A DNA stretch of 64,000 bases. Source: Nitrososphaerota archaeon (lineage in GTDB: Archaea; Thermoproteota; Nitrososphaeria; Nitrososphaerales; JACQRY01). The position numbers were made by a program, and so were the translations under genes. Position 1 is the stretch's first letter. The number at the start of each line of letters is the position of its first letter. Below, in pieces: positions 11,277-24,464 of this stretch. The notes under the pieces are model-generated. The model was given only the letters and a program-made list of their open reading frames with translations, searched no databases and had not been told where the DNA came from. Where the stretch lies: assembly GCA_016184315.1 (NCBI GenBank), contig JACPCU010000024.1:1-64000 (forward strand), written 5' to 3'.

Positions 11277-12259
11277 TGTAGGACCAAGGGAGTTATGACA
11301 CCCCCCTTGCGCGACAATCGAAGTGAATCAAACAACGATCATCGTGCAAGGAGAGGTGTACCTTGATGAGAGCCATGATAGGCAGGTCCAAGAGGCAGCT
11401 CCAGCGTCTGGTGAGACGATTCAGGGAGGAGGGCATCGCAGGGTTGAGGTTCAAATCAAAGAGACCTCACACCATACCGAGGAACAAGGTTCCTCCGGAC
11501 ATTGAGCAGAGAGTCATCGAGGTCAGGAGTGCGACGGGATTCGGCTCCGACCAGCTCGCAGCCATAGTGAATGAGAGCCTCAGCCTCGAGTCAAGGAGAC
11601 CGATCACCGACACCACATGCTACAACATCTTGGCAAGGAACGATCTCGTGGTAGCTGAGAGAAGGACGATGAAACGGTACAGGTCGTTCGAGTGGGGTCA
11701 TCCTGACGAACTCATCCAGTGCGACATCACAGAATTCGGTGGCTTCCCCATCCTCACGATGCAGGACGACCACTCGCGGGAGGGGTGGGCTGGACGGATT
11801 GACGGTGCGACCGACGATATGGTTGTGGATGGGATGACATGTCTCCATCCCCACGTCTACGAGAACCTGCTCACGGACAACGGGAAGCAATTCTGCAGGA
11901 TGAACTCGACGATGCGGAAATACTGCGAGAGGCATCTGACTGGTAAGCACATCTGGTCATCAGTACATCACCCTCAGACGTTGGGCAAGCTCTCCGCGTT
12001 CCAGAAGGGATTGAAGAGGTTCCTCGTCCACAGATTGGGAAGGAGCACGGACAAGGATGCCATAGACGAGTGCATCCGCGTCTACGTCGACTGGCACAAC
12101 AACGGGTTGAAGGTCAGGACCACAGGATGCCATCCAGAGGAGAGGTACTCCGGCGAGAGAGATCCTCGCTGGTATGGGAGGCTCGTAAAGGCTCTTAAGC
12201 TCGGGTGGATGTTACCCCTCCCTGCGCAAGGGGGATGACACATCCTCCTTAGTTCTACA
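11277..12259 (+). mobile_element. Insertion sequence, 983 bp, DDE (IS481/IS3-type rve) transposase
   Basis: The element is bounded by 36-bp imperfect terminal inverted repeats at 11277-11312 and 12224-12259, 28 of 36 positions identical. The outer ends are TGTAG and the inner block CCCCCTTGCGC is perfect. It carries one transposase gene (11363-12238) and sits between perfect 16-bp direct repeats. It interrupts a beta-propeller gene. The size and gene organisation resemble the IS481 family, whose target duplications are usually reported as 4-15 bp, so 16 bp is at or just past the known range. I cannot assign a named IS. Confidence 0.9.
11363..12238 (+). CDS. IS481/IS3-like transposase with unusual third catalytic position
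   Basis: The 291-residue protein has an N-terminal helix-turn-helix part (SKRQLQRLVRRFREEGIAGL), a linker and an rve integrase core. The first two acidic residues are Asp121 in CDITEF and Asp172 in LLTDNGKQF. At the position where HPQTxGKxER supplies the third acid, this protein has HPQTLGKLSA, with Ser211 in place of Glu, 39 residues after Asp172. The start is TTG at 11363 with AAGGAGAGG just upstream. The first helix of the usual HTH seems short or absent. The stop lies inside the right inverted repeat. Despite the Ser, the perfect target duplication shows that the copy moved recently, by this protein or by a relative in trans. Confidence 0.85.
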   Translation: MMRAMIGRSKRQLQRLVRRFREEGIAGLRFKSKRPHTIPRNKVPPDIEQRVIEVRSATGFGSDQLAAIVNESLSLESRRPITDTTCYNILARNDLVVAERRTMKRYRSFEWGHPDELIQCDITEFGGFPILTMQDDHSREGWAGRIDGATDDMVVDGMTCLHPHVYENLLTDNGKQFCRMNSTMRKYCERHLTGKHIWSSVHHPQTLGKLSAFQKGLKRFLVHRLGRSTDKDAIDECIRVYVDWHNNGLKVRTTGCHPEERYSGERDPRWYGRLVKALKLGWMLPLPAQGG

Positions 12260-13265: not shown

Positions 13266-13335
13266 GGTGAGTAAGTCTCTCCCGAAAGGATGATGCTTGT
13301 GGATGCAAGCTGGGACAACTAGGGAGAGGGTCACC
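13266..13335. other. Long imperfect hairpin, possible structured RNA or terminator
   Basis: Three nested stems can be drawn. GGTGA (13266-13270) pairs with TCACC (13331-13335), CTCTCCC (13277-13283) with GGGAGAG (13322-13328), and GCTTG (13295-13299) with CAAGC (13306-13310). It lies just past the DUF3800 gene, overlapping its stop region, and about 200 bases upstream of the propeller gene. It may be a 3' structure, a small RNA or a mobile-element relic. Confidence 0.35.
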
Positions 13336-13984
13336 AGTCTATTTTCCCCCAGTTATGTTTGTATCTGATTTTTGATCCTAGCAGTGAATAATGAGAGTTG
13401 GGCAAATTACGTAGTTTTCTGCTGACCGAGCCCGCAATGTAATCGGCTATTTGCAGTATAGGCATTCCTTCAGAGTTCACATGCTGTGCAGAGTACTTTG
13501 GTTTATTTTTCTCCAATCTCACGCTAGCCATCCAAGTAAGCTTATCGTTCAAATACTTGTTGAAGTCCTTAATTCTCTCAGCAGAATAACGTCTATCAAA
13601 ATAAAACAGTAATTCATCAGGCGAATAATTAGCTAAGACATCTGTAATCATGTAATTAATAGTCAAATAATTATACAATACGTTGGGCTGTTCACGCAGT
13701 TCAGGCTTAACATGTTTCTTATCAACTGCGACGCATCCAGCCTCAAAATCCAATGGCATAATCGAATTTATAACGAGTCGCTTTAGCTTTTCACTGTCAT
13801 GGTTAAATTTGAATTCCTGAACTCCTTTCCACCCAACCTCTTTCGTATGCTTCTTTAGCCGTCTCATCTTAGTTATTAGATAGAACGGGCTATTAGTAAT
13901 CACATATACCACTACAAAATACGGAGTGGCCTTCGAAGAAAAACCCAAATCACCCGACTCATCAACGTATAGGGAAAGACGCAA
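13331..13984 (-). CDS. DUF3800 domain protein
   Basis: The 217-residue protein begins MRLSLYVDESGDLGF, the DESGD signature of DUF3800, a family with an RNase-H-like acidic motif. Later it has FYFDRRYSAER and a C-terminal ILQIADYIAGSVSRK, both usual for the family. DUF3800 genes are common in genomic islands and near restriction or defence genes, but no biochemical role is settled. It is AT-richer than the host genes to its left and sits next to the integrase, so it may belong to the accessory region. The ATG start at 13984 is the natural one because DESGD is always near the N-terminus. Confidence 0.82.
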   Translation of the reverse strand: MRLSLYVDESGDLGFSSKATPYFVVVYVITNSPFYLITKMRRLKKHTKEVGWKGVQEFKFNHDSEKLKRLVINSIMPLDFEAGCVAVDKKHVKPELREQPNVLYNYLTINYMITDVLANYSPDELLFYFDRRYSAERIKDFNKYLNDKLTWMASVRLEKNKPKYSAQHVNSEGMPILQIADYIAGSVSRKLRNLPNSHYSLLGSKIRYKHNWGKIDW

Positions 13985-14178: not shown

Positions 14179-15368
14179 GTGGTTGCCGCTAGGGGCTCCA
14201 GAAGCTGGCTTGAAGATGGGTCAGCTGACCTGTAAAGACACTGGTACGAGAATCTCAGAAGAGGAAGCAAGGTTCACGGCGACCTCAGCTTGAAGAGGTT
14301 GAAGGCGTTTTGCACATGGTCTAAGCTGTCTCCTCAGGAAATAGTGTCCCGCGCGAACTCTAGCATAGATGATTTCCAGCATCGTGTTGAGGACTATGTA
14401 TCGTACCTAGAGGGCTCCGGGAAAAGCCCTGCCTATGTAGGCAATCTACTAAAGCCAATTCGGAGCTGGCTTGACTACAAGCATGCGCCGAAGCTCGCAA
14501 AGATCAAGATAACGGGATCAGGCACTAATCCGACGACTGCTGATGAGCGCGTTCCTTCACAGGAAGAACTTGCCCGAATACTCCGCTTCCTAGACCCCAG
14601 AGGGAGGACGTCTGCAGCACTGATTGCGTTCACGGGGAATAGGATTGAGGTCTTGGGGAATTATGACGGGACAGATGGCTTAGTGCTCGGAGACCTTCCT
14701 GAATTGTCAATCAAGGATAAGGAGGTAGTGTTTGAAACGATTCCAACGATGATTGTGGTGAGACCCTCTCTGAGCAAAGCGGGTCACCGCTACTTCACAT
14801 TCCTTTCCAGCGAGGGGTGCCGCTACGTCAAAGAGTACCTGGAGGGCAGGCTTTCCGGTGGGGAGGCTTTGGACGCGAAGTCCACATTGATCAGTGCTTA
14901 CAGGTCGTATAGGAACCGGTTTCTATATGCTACTAAGGTCGGAGGTCATATCAGAACGGGGATTCGGGCAGCAGGATTCGGCTGGAGACCGTATGTGCTT
15001 AAGGCGTATGCCGATACAGCCTTCGACATAGCTGAGTCGAAGGGGCTGATCACCCATGCTTGGAGACAATTCTTCATGGGACACAAAGGAGACATTGAGG
15101 CCCGATACTCCACGAATAAAGGACGGTTGCCGCCAAACATGGTTCAGGAGATGAGGGATGTCTATAAGCGGTGCGAGCCGTTTATGTCAACTGAGAAGAT
15201 AGAGGGTGCAAGCGAGGAGAAGATCAGGAGAGCCTTCAAGGAACAACTGATAACGGCTCGAAACAAAAGGTTATCCCGATAACGGAAGTTGAGAATCATG
15301 TTTCGCAAGGTTGGGAGTTCGTGGCTGCCATCCCTGACAACAAGGCTATACTGAAGATACCCTACTGA
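14179..15368 (+). pseudogene. Archaeal tyrosine recombinase/integrase, disrupted
   Basis: The open core 14290-15282 (330 codons) holds the catalytic parts: Arg in TGNRIEVLG, the HAWR box, the later His in FMGHKGD and the nucleophile Tyr in EARYST. Conserved sequence continues outside it on both sides. Upstream in the same frame lies RHWYENLRRGSKVHGDLSLK, a typical N-terminal domain stretch, cut off from WLEDGSADL by a TAA at 14233-14235. Downstream, a one-base shift near 15262-15285 leads into EVENHVSQGWEFVAAIP and a stop at 15368, which is the usual tail of thaumarchaeal/bathyarchaeal integrases. With one nonsense and one frameshift it is probably inactive, although the TTG at 14290 could still start a shortened protein. 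Confidence 0.75.
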
Positions 15369-20509: not shown

Positions 20510-20713
20510 GTGAAGAGGATGCAAGAAGCTCTCCGATTGTCGCCTTCCATTGAACAAACAGAGGAGGAATCGAGGACTTTGTATCTCTGCGCAAAAGGCC
20601 CTTGCGGTTCTTTTGTCGAAGAGCAGTCGATACTGCATATATCAATAGTGGACAGTCTCCATCAATTTGATCCTGAACGAGCGTTCCCTAAGCTAGACGG
20701 TGGAATATCATGA
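20510..20713 (+). CDS. Small hypothetical protein between ATPase and ABC-GNAT genes
   Basis: A GTG directly after the ATPase stop opens a 67-codon frame whose TGA overlaps the ATG of the ABC-GNAT gene (ATGA at 20710-20713). The tight overlaps on both sides are the main support. The product is acidic, with a CAKGPCGSF segment (two cysteines) and a C-terminal helix, and resembles nothing I can name. Confidence 0.5.
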   Translation: MKRMQEALRLSPSIEQTEEESRTLYLCAKGPCGSFVEEQSILHISIVDSLHQFDPERAFPKLDGGIS

Positions 20714-22071
20714 GATTTGTCTTGAACAAGTCCTTCACAACCCAAGGGAAGCATGGTGACAGAATAGTCCTAGTTGCTGAGGTCTTTGGTCTGGGATTGG
20801 ATGCGGAAAGGAGCTTCCAGGTCATTGAAAATTTACAGATAGACCTGAGACCAGGTGACATCTGCTATGTGATAGGTGATTCTGGCGGAGGCAAGAGCAC
20901 CCTTCTCAAACTTCTCCAAGACCAGATCCGACAGGCAGGAATCTTCGGGCAAATAGTCGATGACAAATCCTTGCTGATCCCTGAAGATGAGATCCTGATT
21001 GAAGAGGCTGGTGCCACGTTTGAGGAGGCTCTTTCGAATCTCTGCCAAGCAGGCCTCGGAGATGCCTACCTTTTCATCAGAAAGTTCAGCGAGCTAAGTG
21101 ACGGCCAAAGATACCGGTACCGGATAGCCAAGATGCTTAGCTCAGGAGCCAAGGTCATGGTCTTCGACGAGTTCCTCAGCACATTAGATAGGGATACCGC
21201 AAAAGCCGTCGCATACTGTCTTCAGAAACTTATGAGGCGTGAACATAGAACACTTATCGCCGCAACAACCCATGAAGATCTCCTCGAAGACCTGAACCCC
21301 AGCGTAGTGATCAGAAAGGAGTTTGGTTCAGCTGCTCAGATAGAATACAGGAACCCGACTCCAGCGATCAGCCATCGCTTTAGCCTAATTGAGACGATAA
21401 CGATCGCAGAGTCCGGCAGAGAGGATTACGGGCAACTGTCGCAATTCCACTATCGTGCTGGTCTCCCTTCAGCTACGAGGAAAATCTTCTCTATGAGACG
21501 TAGAGGTAAGATCATCGGCGCCATAGCCTATGGCTCCAGTCTTCTAACCTCTTCTGCGAGAACAAGGTTCCTAGGATACTCACCTTTGCCCCAAGAGGTG
21601 AACAGGGACTTCGTGAGGATCACGAGAGTGGTGGTTCACCCGAAGTATCGCAGCCTAGGTTTAGGCGCTAAGCTGGTGAAAGAGACTCTCCCTTTGGTCG
21701 GCGTGAAGTATGTTGAGTCTATGGCGGTTATGGCTCGCTACAATCCGTTCTTCGAAAAGGCGGGGATGACCAAGGTTGAGTCCAAGAGCGGTCTGGTTCA
21801 AGAAGCGAAGGATAGCCTAGAACTCATCGGAGTAGACTTCAGGACAGTCGATCAACTAGGTGAAGAAGAATATCGTAGGGTTATCCAATGTTTGGTGGAG
21901 CACTGCCCTTACCTTGCGCTGACAAACATCTACGGACATCGGACTAAGCTATCCACAGACGGTCTTCTGGAGGACCTTCAAGACCACTCATTCACTAAGA
22001 GAGTGTTGGCTGAACTCTCAACTTTAGCCGAAGAGAAGGCGTATTTCATATGGAGGAACCCAACGCTATGA
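20710..22071 (+). CDS. ABC-ATPase fused to a GNAT acetyltransferase-like domain
   Basis: This 453-residue fusion has an N-terminal ABC ATPase with Walker A GDSGGGKST (56-64), signature LSDGQ (129-133), Walker B VMVFDE (149-154) and a switch His in ATTHEDL. No transmembrane domain is encoded nearby, so it is not a transporter. The C-terminal part (about 230-453) is GNAT-like: strand RVVVHPKYRSLGLGAKLVKE (306-325) is the acetyl-CoA pyrophosphate loop and MARYNPFFEKAGM (341-353) the closing helix. The MARYNPFFxxAGM ending is also seen in Mom-like GNAT proteins that modify DNA bases, so a role in DNA modification or packaging is conceivable (inference). It overlaps the ParB-like gene and is part of the terminase operon. 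Confidence 0.78.
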   Translation: MRFVLNKSFTTQGKHGDRIVLVAEVFGLGLDAERSFQVIENLQIDLRPGDICYVIGDSGGGKSTLLKLLQDQIRQAGIFGQIVDDKSLLIPEDEILIEEAGATFEEALSNLCQAGLGDAYLFIRKFSELSDGQRYRYRIAKMLSSGAKVMVFDEFLSTLDRDTAKAVAYCLQKLMRREHRTLIAATTHEDLLEDLNPSVVIRKEFGSAAQIEYRNPTPAISHRFSLIETITIAESGREDYGQLSQFHYRAGLPSATRKIFSMRRRGKIIGAIAYGSSLLTSSARTRFLGYSPLPQEVNRDFVRITRVVVHPKYRSLGLGAKLVKETLPLVGVKYVESMAVMARYNPFFEKAGMTKVESKSGLVQEAKDSLELIGVDFRTVDQLGEEEYRRVIQCLVEHCPYLALTNIYGHRTKLSTDGLLEDLQDHSFTKRVLAELSTLAEEKAYFIWRNPTL

Positions 22072-22730
22072 AGACAACACCGGTTGCTATAGCCGTAGAT
22101 AGAATCCATGCGAACAGCTGGAACCCAAACTCTATGAAGCCTGAGATCTTCGAGGCACTAGTAGAGGACATCAAGAGAAACGGGTTCCTCGGAGCCATCC
22201 TGGTTAGAAATTGTTCTTGCAGGAATTTTGACAGCGAACACTTCGAGATTGTAGACGGAGAGCACCGGTGGCTCGCCTCACAGGACAGGAGGATCGACCT
22301 ACATAAGATTCCATGCTACATAGTGGAGAGAGACGACATATCTGCAAGAGTAGAAACCGTCACTCGTAACCGTGAACACGGAGACTTCGTCAGAGAGAAA
22401 CTTGTCAAGCTGATAGGAGAGTTGAAAGGTCCTTTCAGCCTCAGAGAAGAAGACATACGGGCAAGAATGATGATCCCTGAAGCAGAGTTCTCTCTGATCC
22501 TGAATCCAGTCAACATGAAGCCTGAGCCAGTCAGGAAGCTGGAGCTCCACGGGAGGCGACCATCATTCACGGTAACAGCCTCAATCTCCTCGAAAGAACA
22601 GTATGACATGATCACGGGAATGTTGGACACAGTGATGCAGGAGGAGCAGTGCGATAAGGGGCATGCCATGGTGAAAGTTTTCACGGCTTTCCGGGCGATA
22701 CGGAATGATACTGTTAGGGGGGAGGGTTGA
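22068..22730 (+). CDS. ParB/Srx-fold nuclease-like protein
   Basis: Using the ATG at 22068, which overlaps the preceding TGA (ATGA) and follows GGAGG, the product is about 220 residues. The first 110 residues form a ParB/sulfiredoxin-fold domain: DRIHANSWNPNSM, the helix EALVEDIKRNGFLGAILVRN, and the IVDGEHRWLA motif that corresponds to the GERR/GEHR nucleotide-binding box (CTPase or nuclease). An HTH-like middle and a short C-terminal domain follow. ParB-fold proteins next to terminase genes are common in tailed viruses, where they may act as DNA-binding packaging factors. Alternative start: ATG at 22050. Confidence 0.8.
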   Translation: MKTTPVAIAVDRIHANSWNPNSMKPEIFEALVEDIKRNGFLGAILVRNCSCRNFDSEHFEIVDGEHRWLASQDRRIDLHKIPCYIVERDDISARVETVTRNREHGDFVREKLVKLIGELKGPFSLREEDIRARMMIPEAEFSLILNPVNMKPEPVRKLELHGRRPSFTVTASISSKEQYDMITGMLDTVMQEEQCDKGHAMVKVFTAFRAIRNDTVRGEG

Positions 22731-23197
22731 TGGCTGAGAACATCGGGATTGCGCGTCGGAGGGAGCAGGTTCAGCGGCTGCTCATTAGGGGATTGTCTGC
22801 AAGCGAGATCGCCAATTCTATTGTTCCTCCTGTTAGCGAGGTTACGGTCAAGCGGGATATTGCTTGGATTCGTAAGATGAATGAGGACTGGTGGAGGAGT
22901 AATTCTCAGGTAAAGGCTAGGATGATGCGGTACTTGAAGGAGAGGCTTGATGCTATGAGGGAGGTGGGGAGGGAAGGCTGGTTGGTGGTGTATGAGGCTA
23001 GGGATGATTTGAGGATGAGGGTATCTGGTTTGAATGTCGTTTTGGGTGCCGAGAAGGCTATTGGTGAACTCTTAGGGTTTACAGGCATCTCGCTTACGGA
23101 TCTTGAGGTTCAGGATAGGTTGGAGAAGATGGATGTGGAGATTACGGATTTGAGGAGGCTTGTGCACCTTGCGGAGAACCATGCTCTCAGCGCTTGA
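22730..23197 (+). CDS. Helix-turn-helix protein, putative small terminase subunit
   Basis: The ATG at 22730 overlaps the ParB-like stop and sits behind GGGGGGAGGG; a TTG just before it is also possible. The 155-residue product starts with an HTH (RREQVQRLLIRGLSASEIA, VSEVTVKRDIAWIR), which recognises DNA. A long helical part (RYLKERLDAMREVGREG, DLEVQDRLEKMDVEITDLRRL) fits oligomerisation. Position directly before the large terminase, size and HTH-plus-coil structure are those of phage small terminase subunits, but no sequence family is recognised. Its end overlaps the large-terminase start by 17 bases. Confidence 0.65.
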   Translation: MAENIGIARRREQVQRLLIRGLSASEIANSIVPPVSEVTVKRDIAWIRKMNEDWWRSNSQVKARMMRYLKERLDAMREVGREGWLVVYEARDDLRMRVSGLNVVLGAEKAIGELLGFTGISLTDLEVQDRLEKMDVEITDLRRLVHLAENHALSA

Positions 23198-24464
23198 CGG
23201 TAGGCTGAGGGAGCTTCAGATGCTGAGAACGGGGCTTGTTCAGAGGATTGCGCATCCTACTGGTTCATCTGAGTTCAATGAGAAGATAGGTTGGCCGAAG
23301 CATCCCCGAACTGGGAGCCCGACTCGTCTCTACCAGTATCAGATGGATATCATGGATGCCGAGCAGAGATTCATCCTTGTAGTTAAGTCGAGGAAGATTG
23401 GGATCACTGAAGCGATTATCAGGAGAGCTGCCTGTCTTTCGCTGTCACGTTACGTTGGTTTTCAGGTGCTCTTCGTGAGTCAGAGGGAGGATAATTCGGA
23501 GATGATGATGAGCAGGCTTCAGGGTCTGTTCTGGAACTCACCTTATGAGAACCTCATCGCTAAGGCAACATCCGACTATCTCCGCCTCCAAAATGGGTGT
23601 GAGATTTACTCCTTACCCAGCACCGCCCAGTCTCTGAGGGGATTCCCCAGAGTGAAGGCGGTCTACTTGGACGAAGCGGCTCATTTTGTTCAGCTTAATG
23701 ACGAGAATATCTATGCTGCTCTCCGGCCTTCAATAGTGAATACACAGGGAGACTTCGTTATCGTTTCGACTCCAAGGGGTCAGAGAGGGTTCTTCTACAA
23801 GCTTTACCGTGATGATGACTCGTTCAGGAAATTCGTTCTTCCGTATCATGTTGCCCCGGGCTTGATAGAACCTGCAACGGTAGAGGCGGAGAGGGCCACA
23901 TTGGGGCCCTTGTTTGCGCAGGAATATGAATGCGCTTTTCTCTCTTCTGAGAACGCTGCTTTTCCGCCTGGGCTTGTGGAACAGAGTTTGTCGGACTATG
24001 AATTGGAGGAGCTGTGATGATCCGACTGGGCGGTCTTGACGATTTGGCCTCACGTCGACTACTCTATCATTGAAACTGACATTTGTAGCTACGCAAATCG
24101 CCATGAGCTGCTCCAGCTCGGAGTTGACGCCACTAATGAGGTGAGCTTCTCTGAGAGGCTTCGCAGTCTCGGACTCCCCGTCAAGCCCGTCAGGTTTACC
24201 ATGTCTCTAAAACAGGAGCTTGTTTCCGACGTCATGCTCTTCCTGAGCCAGAAGAGGCTCTCTATCCCGAGTAGAGGAGCTGAGGAACTGCTAGCACAGA
24301 TGAGAGAGCAAGAACGAATCATATCTCAGGCAGGTAGTATTCGATACGAGCATCCATCAGGGAGGCATGACGATGTTTTCTGGGCTTTTGCGATAATGGT
24401 GCACCTAGCTAAGCCGTATATGCTTGGAACATTGGACTTCAGGATATATCCAATCCATCGCTAA
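23181..24464 (+). pseudogene. Large terminase (ATPase-nuclease), broken
   Basis: The first piece (23181-24017) is a terminase ATPase. It has a KSRKIGIT Walker-A-like loop, VLFVSQREDN, Walker B AVYLDEAAHF and the coupling motif VIVSTPRGQRGFFYKLY. It ends at two tandem in-frame TGA codons (24015-24020). The same frame then continues from TTG 24036 as a C-terminal RNase-H-like nuclease part (VDYSIIETD, then an SGRHDDVFWAFA active-site Asp pair). Around 24020-24050 another frame carries GGLDDL, the expected first nuclease motif, so a small frameshift plus the stops separates ATPase from nuclease. The enzyme that cuts and packages viral DNA is therefore most likely inactive. The start ATG at 23181 follows GCGGAG; an earlier in-frame start would lie at 23160. 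Confidence 0.8.

Follow-up and report, generated by a model that had tools for sequence, protein, structure and literature searches.

The analysed stretch of archaeal DNA (64,000 nt; hereafter, the window) encodes, at positions 20710–22071 of the forward strand, a 453-aa protein in which an ABC-type ATPase is fused to a GNAT acetyltransferase domain. The window protein genuinely belongs to this uncharacterised viral family, which was known already, and it is intact and conserved. Our survey makes two useful additions to prior knowledge: the coupling of the gene to that of the terminase large subunit (TerL) in archaeal viruses and proviruses, and a swap with the phage enzyme Mom at a shared locus. 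A predicted role in modifying DNA bases is the best-supported reading of ABC-GNAT. On balance, we consider it probable that the protein is an ATP-driven DNA-base acyltransferase working at or before packaging, a scheme in which substrate and product are inferred, as are the parts played by ATP and ParB.

Architecture of the locus

ABC-GNAT heads a block of forward-strand genes (20710–24464) that continues with a ParB-fold gene, a gene resembling that of a terminase small subunit (TerS) and TerL. According to the ORF list, every gene overlaps the next, by 22 nt (ABC-GNAT/ParB), 4 nt (ParB/TerS-like) and 38 nt (TerS-like/TerL), and ABC-GNAT itself is overlapped by 4 nt by a small upstream ORF (67 aa; 20510–20713, forward strand) without family match in Pfam or PHROG. 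The first-pass annotation had described such an overlapping arrangement of the fusion with ParB-fold and terminase genes, and coordinates, Pfam and PHROG agree with it. The second gene (22050–22730, forward strand) encodes a ParB/Srx-fold protein with a ParB_N domain (PF02195, 3.8e-10; PHROG ParB, 6.7e-19), besides which Pfam detected no second domain such as the central KorB-type helix-turn-helix of partition ParB proteins; no ParA gene was noticed by eye near the locus. As for the terminase subunits claimed earlier, TerL was recovered by Pfam and PHROG (ATPase half at 23160–24017, forward strand; PF03237, 2.5e-5; phrog_2, 2.2e-21), albeit as a broken gene, whereas the 156-aa product of 22727–23197 (forward strand) is a putative small subunit, named for its position before TerL and its helix-turn-helix-like appearance, with no significant profile match in PHROG (best, 0.0058).

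The element around ABC-GNAT is a decayed provirus remnant of a Nitrososphaeria-type archaeon. Judged by the ABC-GNAT protein, the nearest named relative is 'Thaumarchaeota archaeon NC_groundwater_719' (73% identity), and further relatives are mostly Bathyarchaeota and Nitrososphaeria metagenome-assembled genomes. In the window, a double stop follows the ATPase half of TerL, and the disrupted nuclease half (24018–24464, forward strand) lacks the segment that holds GLDLARYRD in a 73%-identical relative (locus L076), i.e. the first catalytic motif (motif I) is lost. TerL of L076 likewise consists of two genes split at the same site, with both halves present and more same-strand genes downstream. 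Separate ATPase and nuclease ORFs with the same split point thus occur in two archaeal proviruses (L076:10517–11914; window 23160–24464), and the matching split points suggest a naturally split terminase rather than decay alone. Downstream of TerL, no gene within the window was recognisable as encoding a capsid or portal protein.

Several further genes lie in or near the remnant. An IS481-like transposase (11363–12238) is found near its left side, a DUF3800 protein (13331–13984) adjoins it, and the ORF at 14290–15282, without match in Pfam, is recombinase-like by our own reading. Elsewhere in the same genome, a second ABC-GNAT (contig C7:80495–81610; 48% identity) resides away from intact TerL and ParB genes; upstream of it is a 126-aa gene whose family precedes TerS/TerL in archaeal viral contigs. 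In the closest relative, an ASCH-like gene (L076:7660–8004; ASCH E-value of 0.0034, below cut-off) is located directly upstream of ABC-GNAT. ASCH proteins can act on N4-acetylcytidine. An N4-acetylcytosine product, as raised by this gene, would be possible, but the score is sub-threshold and the equivalent window gene has no ASCH match in Pfam.

An intact and conserved ABC-GNAT protein

Pfam assigned the ABC domain to PF00005 (2.5e-13) and the GNAT domain to PF00583 (8.8e-5, above its cut-off), and the protein matched PHROG 293 (3e-34), PHROG 11143 (6e-31) and PHROG 886 (2.6e-12). The ATPase part (all coordinates on the forward strand) carries a Walker A motif (GDSGGGKS, residues 56–63, 20875–20898; G56, S58, G59, G61 and K62 invariant), an ABC signature (LSDGQ, residues 129–133, 21094–21108; L129, S130 and G132 invariant), and the Walker B Asp153 with the catalytic Glu154 (21166–21171). 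The GNAT domain spans residues 222–362 (21373–21795), as delimited by PF00583, PF13673 and PF13508, an AlphaFold model and Foldseek, and includes His247-Tyr248 in its N-terminal loop (21448–21453), the motif A R314-S-L-G317-L-G319 forming the CoA pyrophosphate loop (21649–21666), and a YNPFFEKAGM motif (residues 344–353, 21739–21768), present as well in cellular homologues from Thermoprotei. Residues 363–453 (21796–22068) form a C-terminal extension, mostly helical in the model. An end of the GNAT domain at MARYNPFFEKAGM had been proposed, but these are residues 341–353, and ~100 more residues follow that belong to a confident whole-protein model (mean pLDDT of 86.9; 88.9 for the GNAT part alone).

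Across an alignment of 48 relatives, Walker A, the signature, D153, H247-Y248, R306 and G317 are invariant, and E154, the switch H188, R314, G319 and the NPFF motif are conserved in at least 90%. Within the archaeal set, R314, G317 and G319 are all invariant, and they are invariant or at least 90% conserved once phage members are added. As catalytic and motif positions are this well retained among the relatives, chance similarity is excluded. ATPase and CoA-binding motifs of the window protein are intact; unlike the surrounding provirus, the gene has not decayed.

ATPase motifs, CoA motif A and homology to phage members all place the protein in the ABC-ATPase-coupled viral GNAT family (in phages, PHROG 293 together with 886 or 11143). 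Window protein and phage members have the same two domains and the same motifs, their homology spans both domains (roughly 22–38% identity to phages, 34–48% to archaeal viruses), and they have the ParB/TerL neighbourhood in common. The archaeal viral form is one fused protein with the C-terminal extension, usually without ParB, whereas enterobacterial forms comprise two genes. Cells also have a family member, the MK0520-type 'ABC-type ATPase fused to acetyltransferase'.

Distribution and gene neighbourhood

A tblastn search retrieved ABC-GNAT homologues, as fused or adjacent genes, from 66 phage records and from 901 plasmid records, the latter chiefly of Enterobacteriaceae and Acinetobacter. 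TerL lay within 1.5 kb of ABC-GNAT at 42 of 51 usable archaeal viral or proviral loci (20/21 viral contigs and 22/30 proviruses) compared to none of 25 cellular relatives, figures to be read with the viral contigs having been chosen from IMG/VR for viral genes and with the loci being phylogenetically non-independent. The constant partner of ABC-GNAT in archaeal viruses and proviruses is TerL, which is a new observation. ParB, by comparison, was near ABC-GNAT in none of the viral contigs and one provirus, and was rejected as a constant partner in archaeal viruses. The pairing with ParB suggested for the window is thus rare in archaeal viruses (1/51 loci surveyed), but it proved general in bacterial phages.

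For instance, SSU5-like phages encode ABC and GNAT separately, in the order ParB, ParB, ABC, GNAT, DNA-binding gene, TerL and portal (the SSU5 record stops before TerL). Fused ABC-GNAT genes near ParB are found in Leptospira phage LE4, Pasteurella phage Pmp13, Gordonia phage AnClar and Arthrobacter phage EastWest, the first three also near TerL; in Pmp13, the order is ParB, ABC-GNAT, TerS, TerL, portal. ParB is also present in Mu-like transposable and jumbo phages, and the ParB family next to ABC-GNAT is represented across several bacterial phyla by their phages. In Porphyromonas phage 008a and in P12024S, ABC-GNAT does not adjoin the terminase. In Oenococcus phage Vinitor-27 (MT859305.1, L163:3033–3716), a gene annotated as 'adenine methyltransferase' overlaps the ABC-GNAT start and matches the ParB HMM (8e-23).

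The cellular Thermoprotei clade, to which the 25 loci without TerL belong, comprises proteins of about 650 aa that, unlike the archaeal viral form, have the reversed domain order and a zinc ribbon (zinc ribbon, GNAT, then ABC). These homologues (L074–L116; e.g. L098:7125–9080) are chromosomal and keep [YH]HYAS and YNPFFEKAGF; possibly, they are RNA acetyltransferases. Since the two domains are fused, adjacent or fused in reverse across lineages, ABC and GNAT probably act jointly.

Relationship to Mom

Homologues of Mu Mom, a modifier of adenine N6, were found in 226 phage records. The Mu-like Porphyromonas prophages 008a and 012a are almost the same upstream of the locus, where two tail proteins are 96.5% and 85.8% identical, and the next substantial gene following them is ABC-GNAT in one and a genuine Mom (E-value of 1e-19) in the other. 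This slot matches the location of mom at the right end of phage Mu. The start of Mom in Microbacterium phage Appa is overlapped by a ParB gene that matches the ABC-GNAT-associated ParB profile (7e-17). Swap and shared ParB family together point to a single functional slot for Mom and ABC-GNAT, with the swap consisting of one phage pair and the ParB–Mom pairing having been examined in one phage, Appa, and seen again in its relative Bush. The end of ABC-GNAT in the Porphyromonas Mu-like prophage BK068090.1 is overlapped by a gene with a formyltransferase domain (L140:4931–5404; PF00551, 4e-11), whose product might supply a different acyl group.

By family, however, the GNAT domain is not the Mom-like one it had been called. 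The Mom profile PF25680 matched neither the window protein nor anything else in its genome or in any control genome (a weak match, 0.059, was obtained for the LE4 homologue), and comparison of the Mom and ABC-GNAT alignments showed that the Mom invariants ELxR, SxxD, GxxYxA, N and H183 are absent from ABC-GNAT. H247-Y248 does align with the HYS of Mom, a dyad that is non-specific. Membership in the Mom family was rejected on these grounds, and Mom is retained as a functional analogy: both proteins have the GNAT fold, the HY dyad at an equivalent loop, the right-end slot in Mu-like phages and the same ParB family as a possible partner, but Mom has no ABC domain and a degenerate CoA motif.

Fold and profile matches of the GNAT domain

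When the GNAT model was compared to the PDB by Foldseek, TmcA (2zpa) came out on top (E-value of 1.2e-6), followed by RimI-type enzymes at ranks two and three (2e-6 to 3e-6) and by Mom (8bv8) at rank five (7.7e-6), with Ard1 likewise in the top list; among viral models, Mom of FSL SP-031 ranked fourth. The model comparison proposed earlier hence does place Mom and TmcA among the top folds, but by profile RimI scored slightly better (hhalign of 92% for RimI, 88% for Mom and 76% for TmcA), leaving this comparison indecisive as a discriminator of substrates. When PDB sequences were searched with the GNAT profile, generic GNATs were all that came up.

The His-Tyr pair before strand 2 appears as HY in all nine Mom sequences and as HYR in all 14 TmcA sequences inspected. 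As LPEHY occurs at similar spacing in 3 of 13 RimI/Ard1-type control GNATs, the notion that the motif proves a nucleobase enzyme was rejected. Given the comparable RimI/Ard1 matches and this LPEHY, the GNAT domain on its own fits a nucleobase substrate without proving it. TmcA/NAT10, the tRNA-rRNA cytidine acetyltransferase, resembles ABC-GNAT in joining ATPase and GNAT in one protein, in its HYR motif and in being the best fold match, but its substrate is RNA and its ATPase is of the helicase type, not ABC. PF13718 (GNAT_acetyltr_2) matched neither the window protein nor its own genome, and with its ABC-type ATPase the protein falls outside the TmcA family. RimI and Ard1 N-terminal acetyltransferases have GNAT motif A, the fold and, among the three profiles compared, the highest score, but are stand-alone, protein-acting cellular enzymes with neither an ABC domain nor phage synteny.

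Discussion

An ABC-coupled GNAT has been predicted to acylate a DNA base, as stated in a passage of PMC7824862 citing Iyer 2013; Tenacibaculum phage pT24, mentioned by name in the same source, also belongs to our ABC-GNAT phage matches. With this prediction already in print, the DNA-modification idea drawn from the window represents an independent rediscovery. The literature searched yielded no experimental study or biochemical function of ABC-GNAT.

Three other functions deserve consideration. The GNAT domain could acetylate a protein such as terminase, portal or capsid to tune packaging, with the ABC part as an ATP-dependent switch. The constant TerL neighbour fits this, and profile and fold matches to RimI/Ard1 equal those to Mom or TmcA; yet Mom replaces ABC-GNAT in sister phages, ABC-GNAT pairs with ParB-fold proteins, and in Porphyromonas phage 008a and P12024S the ABC-GNAT gene is not adjacent to the terminase, so we regard a protein substrate as unlikely, if the strongest of the three. 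An RNA-acting, TmcA-like enzyme, e.g. for tRNA or rRNA takeover in infection, appears decidedly improbable: TmcA heads the PDB fold matches and has the HYR motif in common, and a cellular Thermoprotei clade exists without phage links, but the viral genes keep company with ParB and DNA-packaging genes, not with translation genes, and they swap with a DNA enzyme. We give slightly less credence still to a partition or DNA-condensation module of phage-plasmids and proviruses, made of ABC head and ParB and regulated by GNAT. Such a module would agree with the ParB neighbours in SSU5-like phages and the many plasmid homologues, but is at odds with the absence of ParB from 50 of the 51 archaeal loci, with its presence in Mu-like transposable and jumbo phages that have no known plasmid stage, and with Pfam recognising the N-terminal domain only in the window ParB.

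DNA-base acylation draws support from the Mom swap, the ParB–Mom pairing, the TerL linkage, the coupling of ABC and GNAT, the TmcA and Mom folds and the published prediction. Against it count the equal scores of RimI/Ard1, the HY motif of some Ard1 proteins and a packaging linkage that fits terminase or capsid as substrate, too. The DNA-modifying machine envisaged by the first-pass annotation survives as the best-supported reading, stripped of Mom family membership and, in archaeal viruses, of a regular ParB. In such a machine, an ABC-type ATPase dimer would grip and deform viral DNA, and ATP hydrolysis might open or track it, while the GNAT domain would move an acyl group from acyl-CoA onto the exocyclic amino group of a base, for which adenine N6 (as in Mom) and cytosine N4 (as in TmcA) offer two precedents. 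Where present, the ParB-fold partner may load the enzyme onto DNA or steer it there. Replicated concatemers would receive the modification during packaging or immediately ahead of it, a timing that would explain the fixed TerL neighbourhood, and virion DNA might thereby resist host nucleases or carry a packaging mark. More tentatively, and as something we consider possible rather than probable, viruses of archaea and bacteria may share a terminase-tied, ATP-driven enzyme that adds an unseen acyl group to DNA bases at or before packaging and replaces Mom locus for locus.

The family has members in archaeal viruses, in hundreds of plasmid records and in phages that infect many bacterial phyla. 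With the Mom swap and homologues in cultured phages whose hosts are harmless, the proposed DNA modification is testable now. If ABC-GNAT does modify DNA, a common viral base modification would have been overlooked so far, and the link to TerL would mean that viral DNA is marked and packaged in a coupled fashion.
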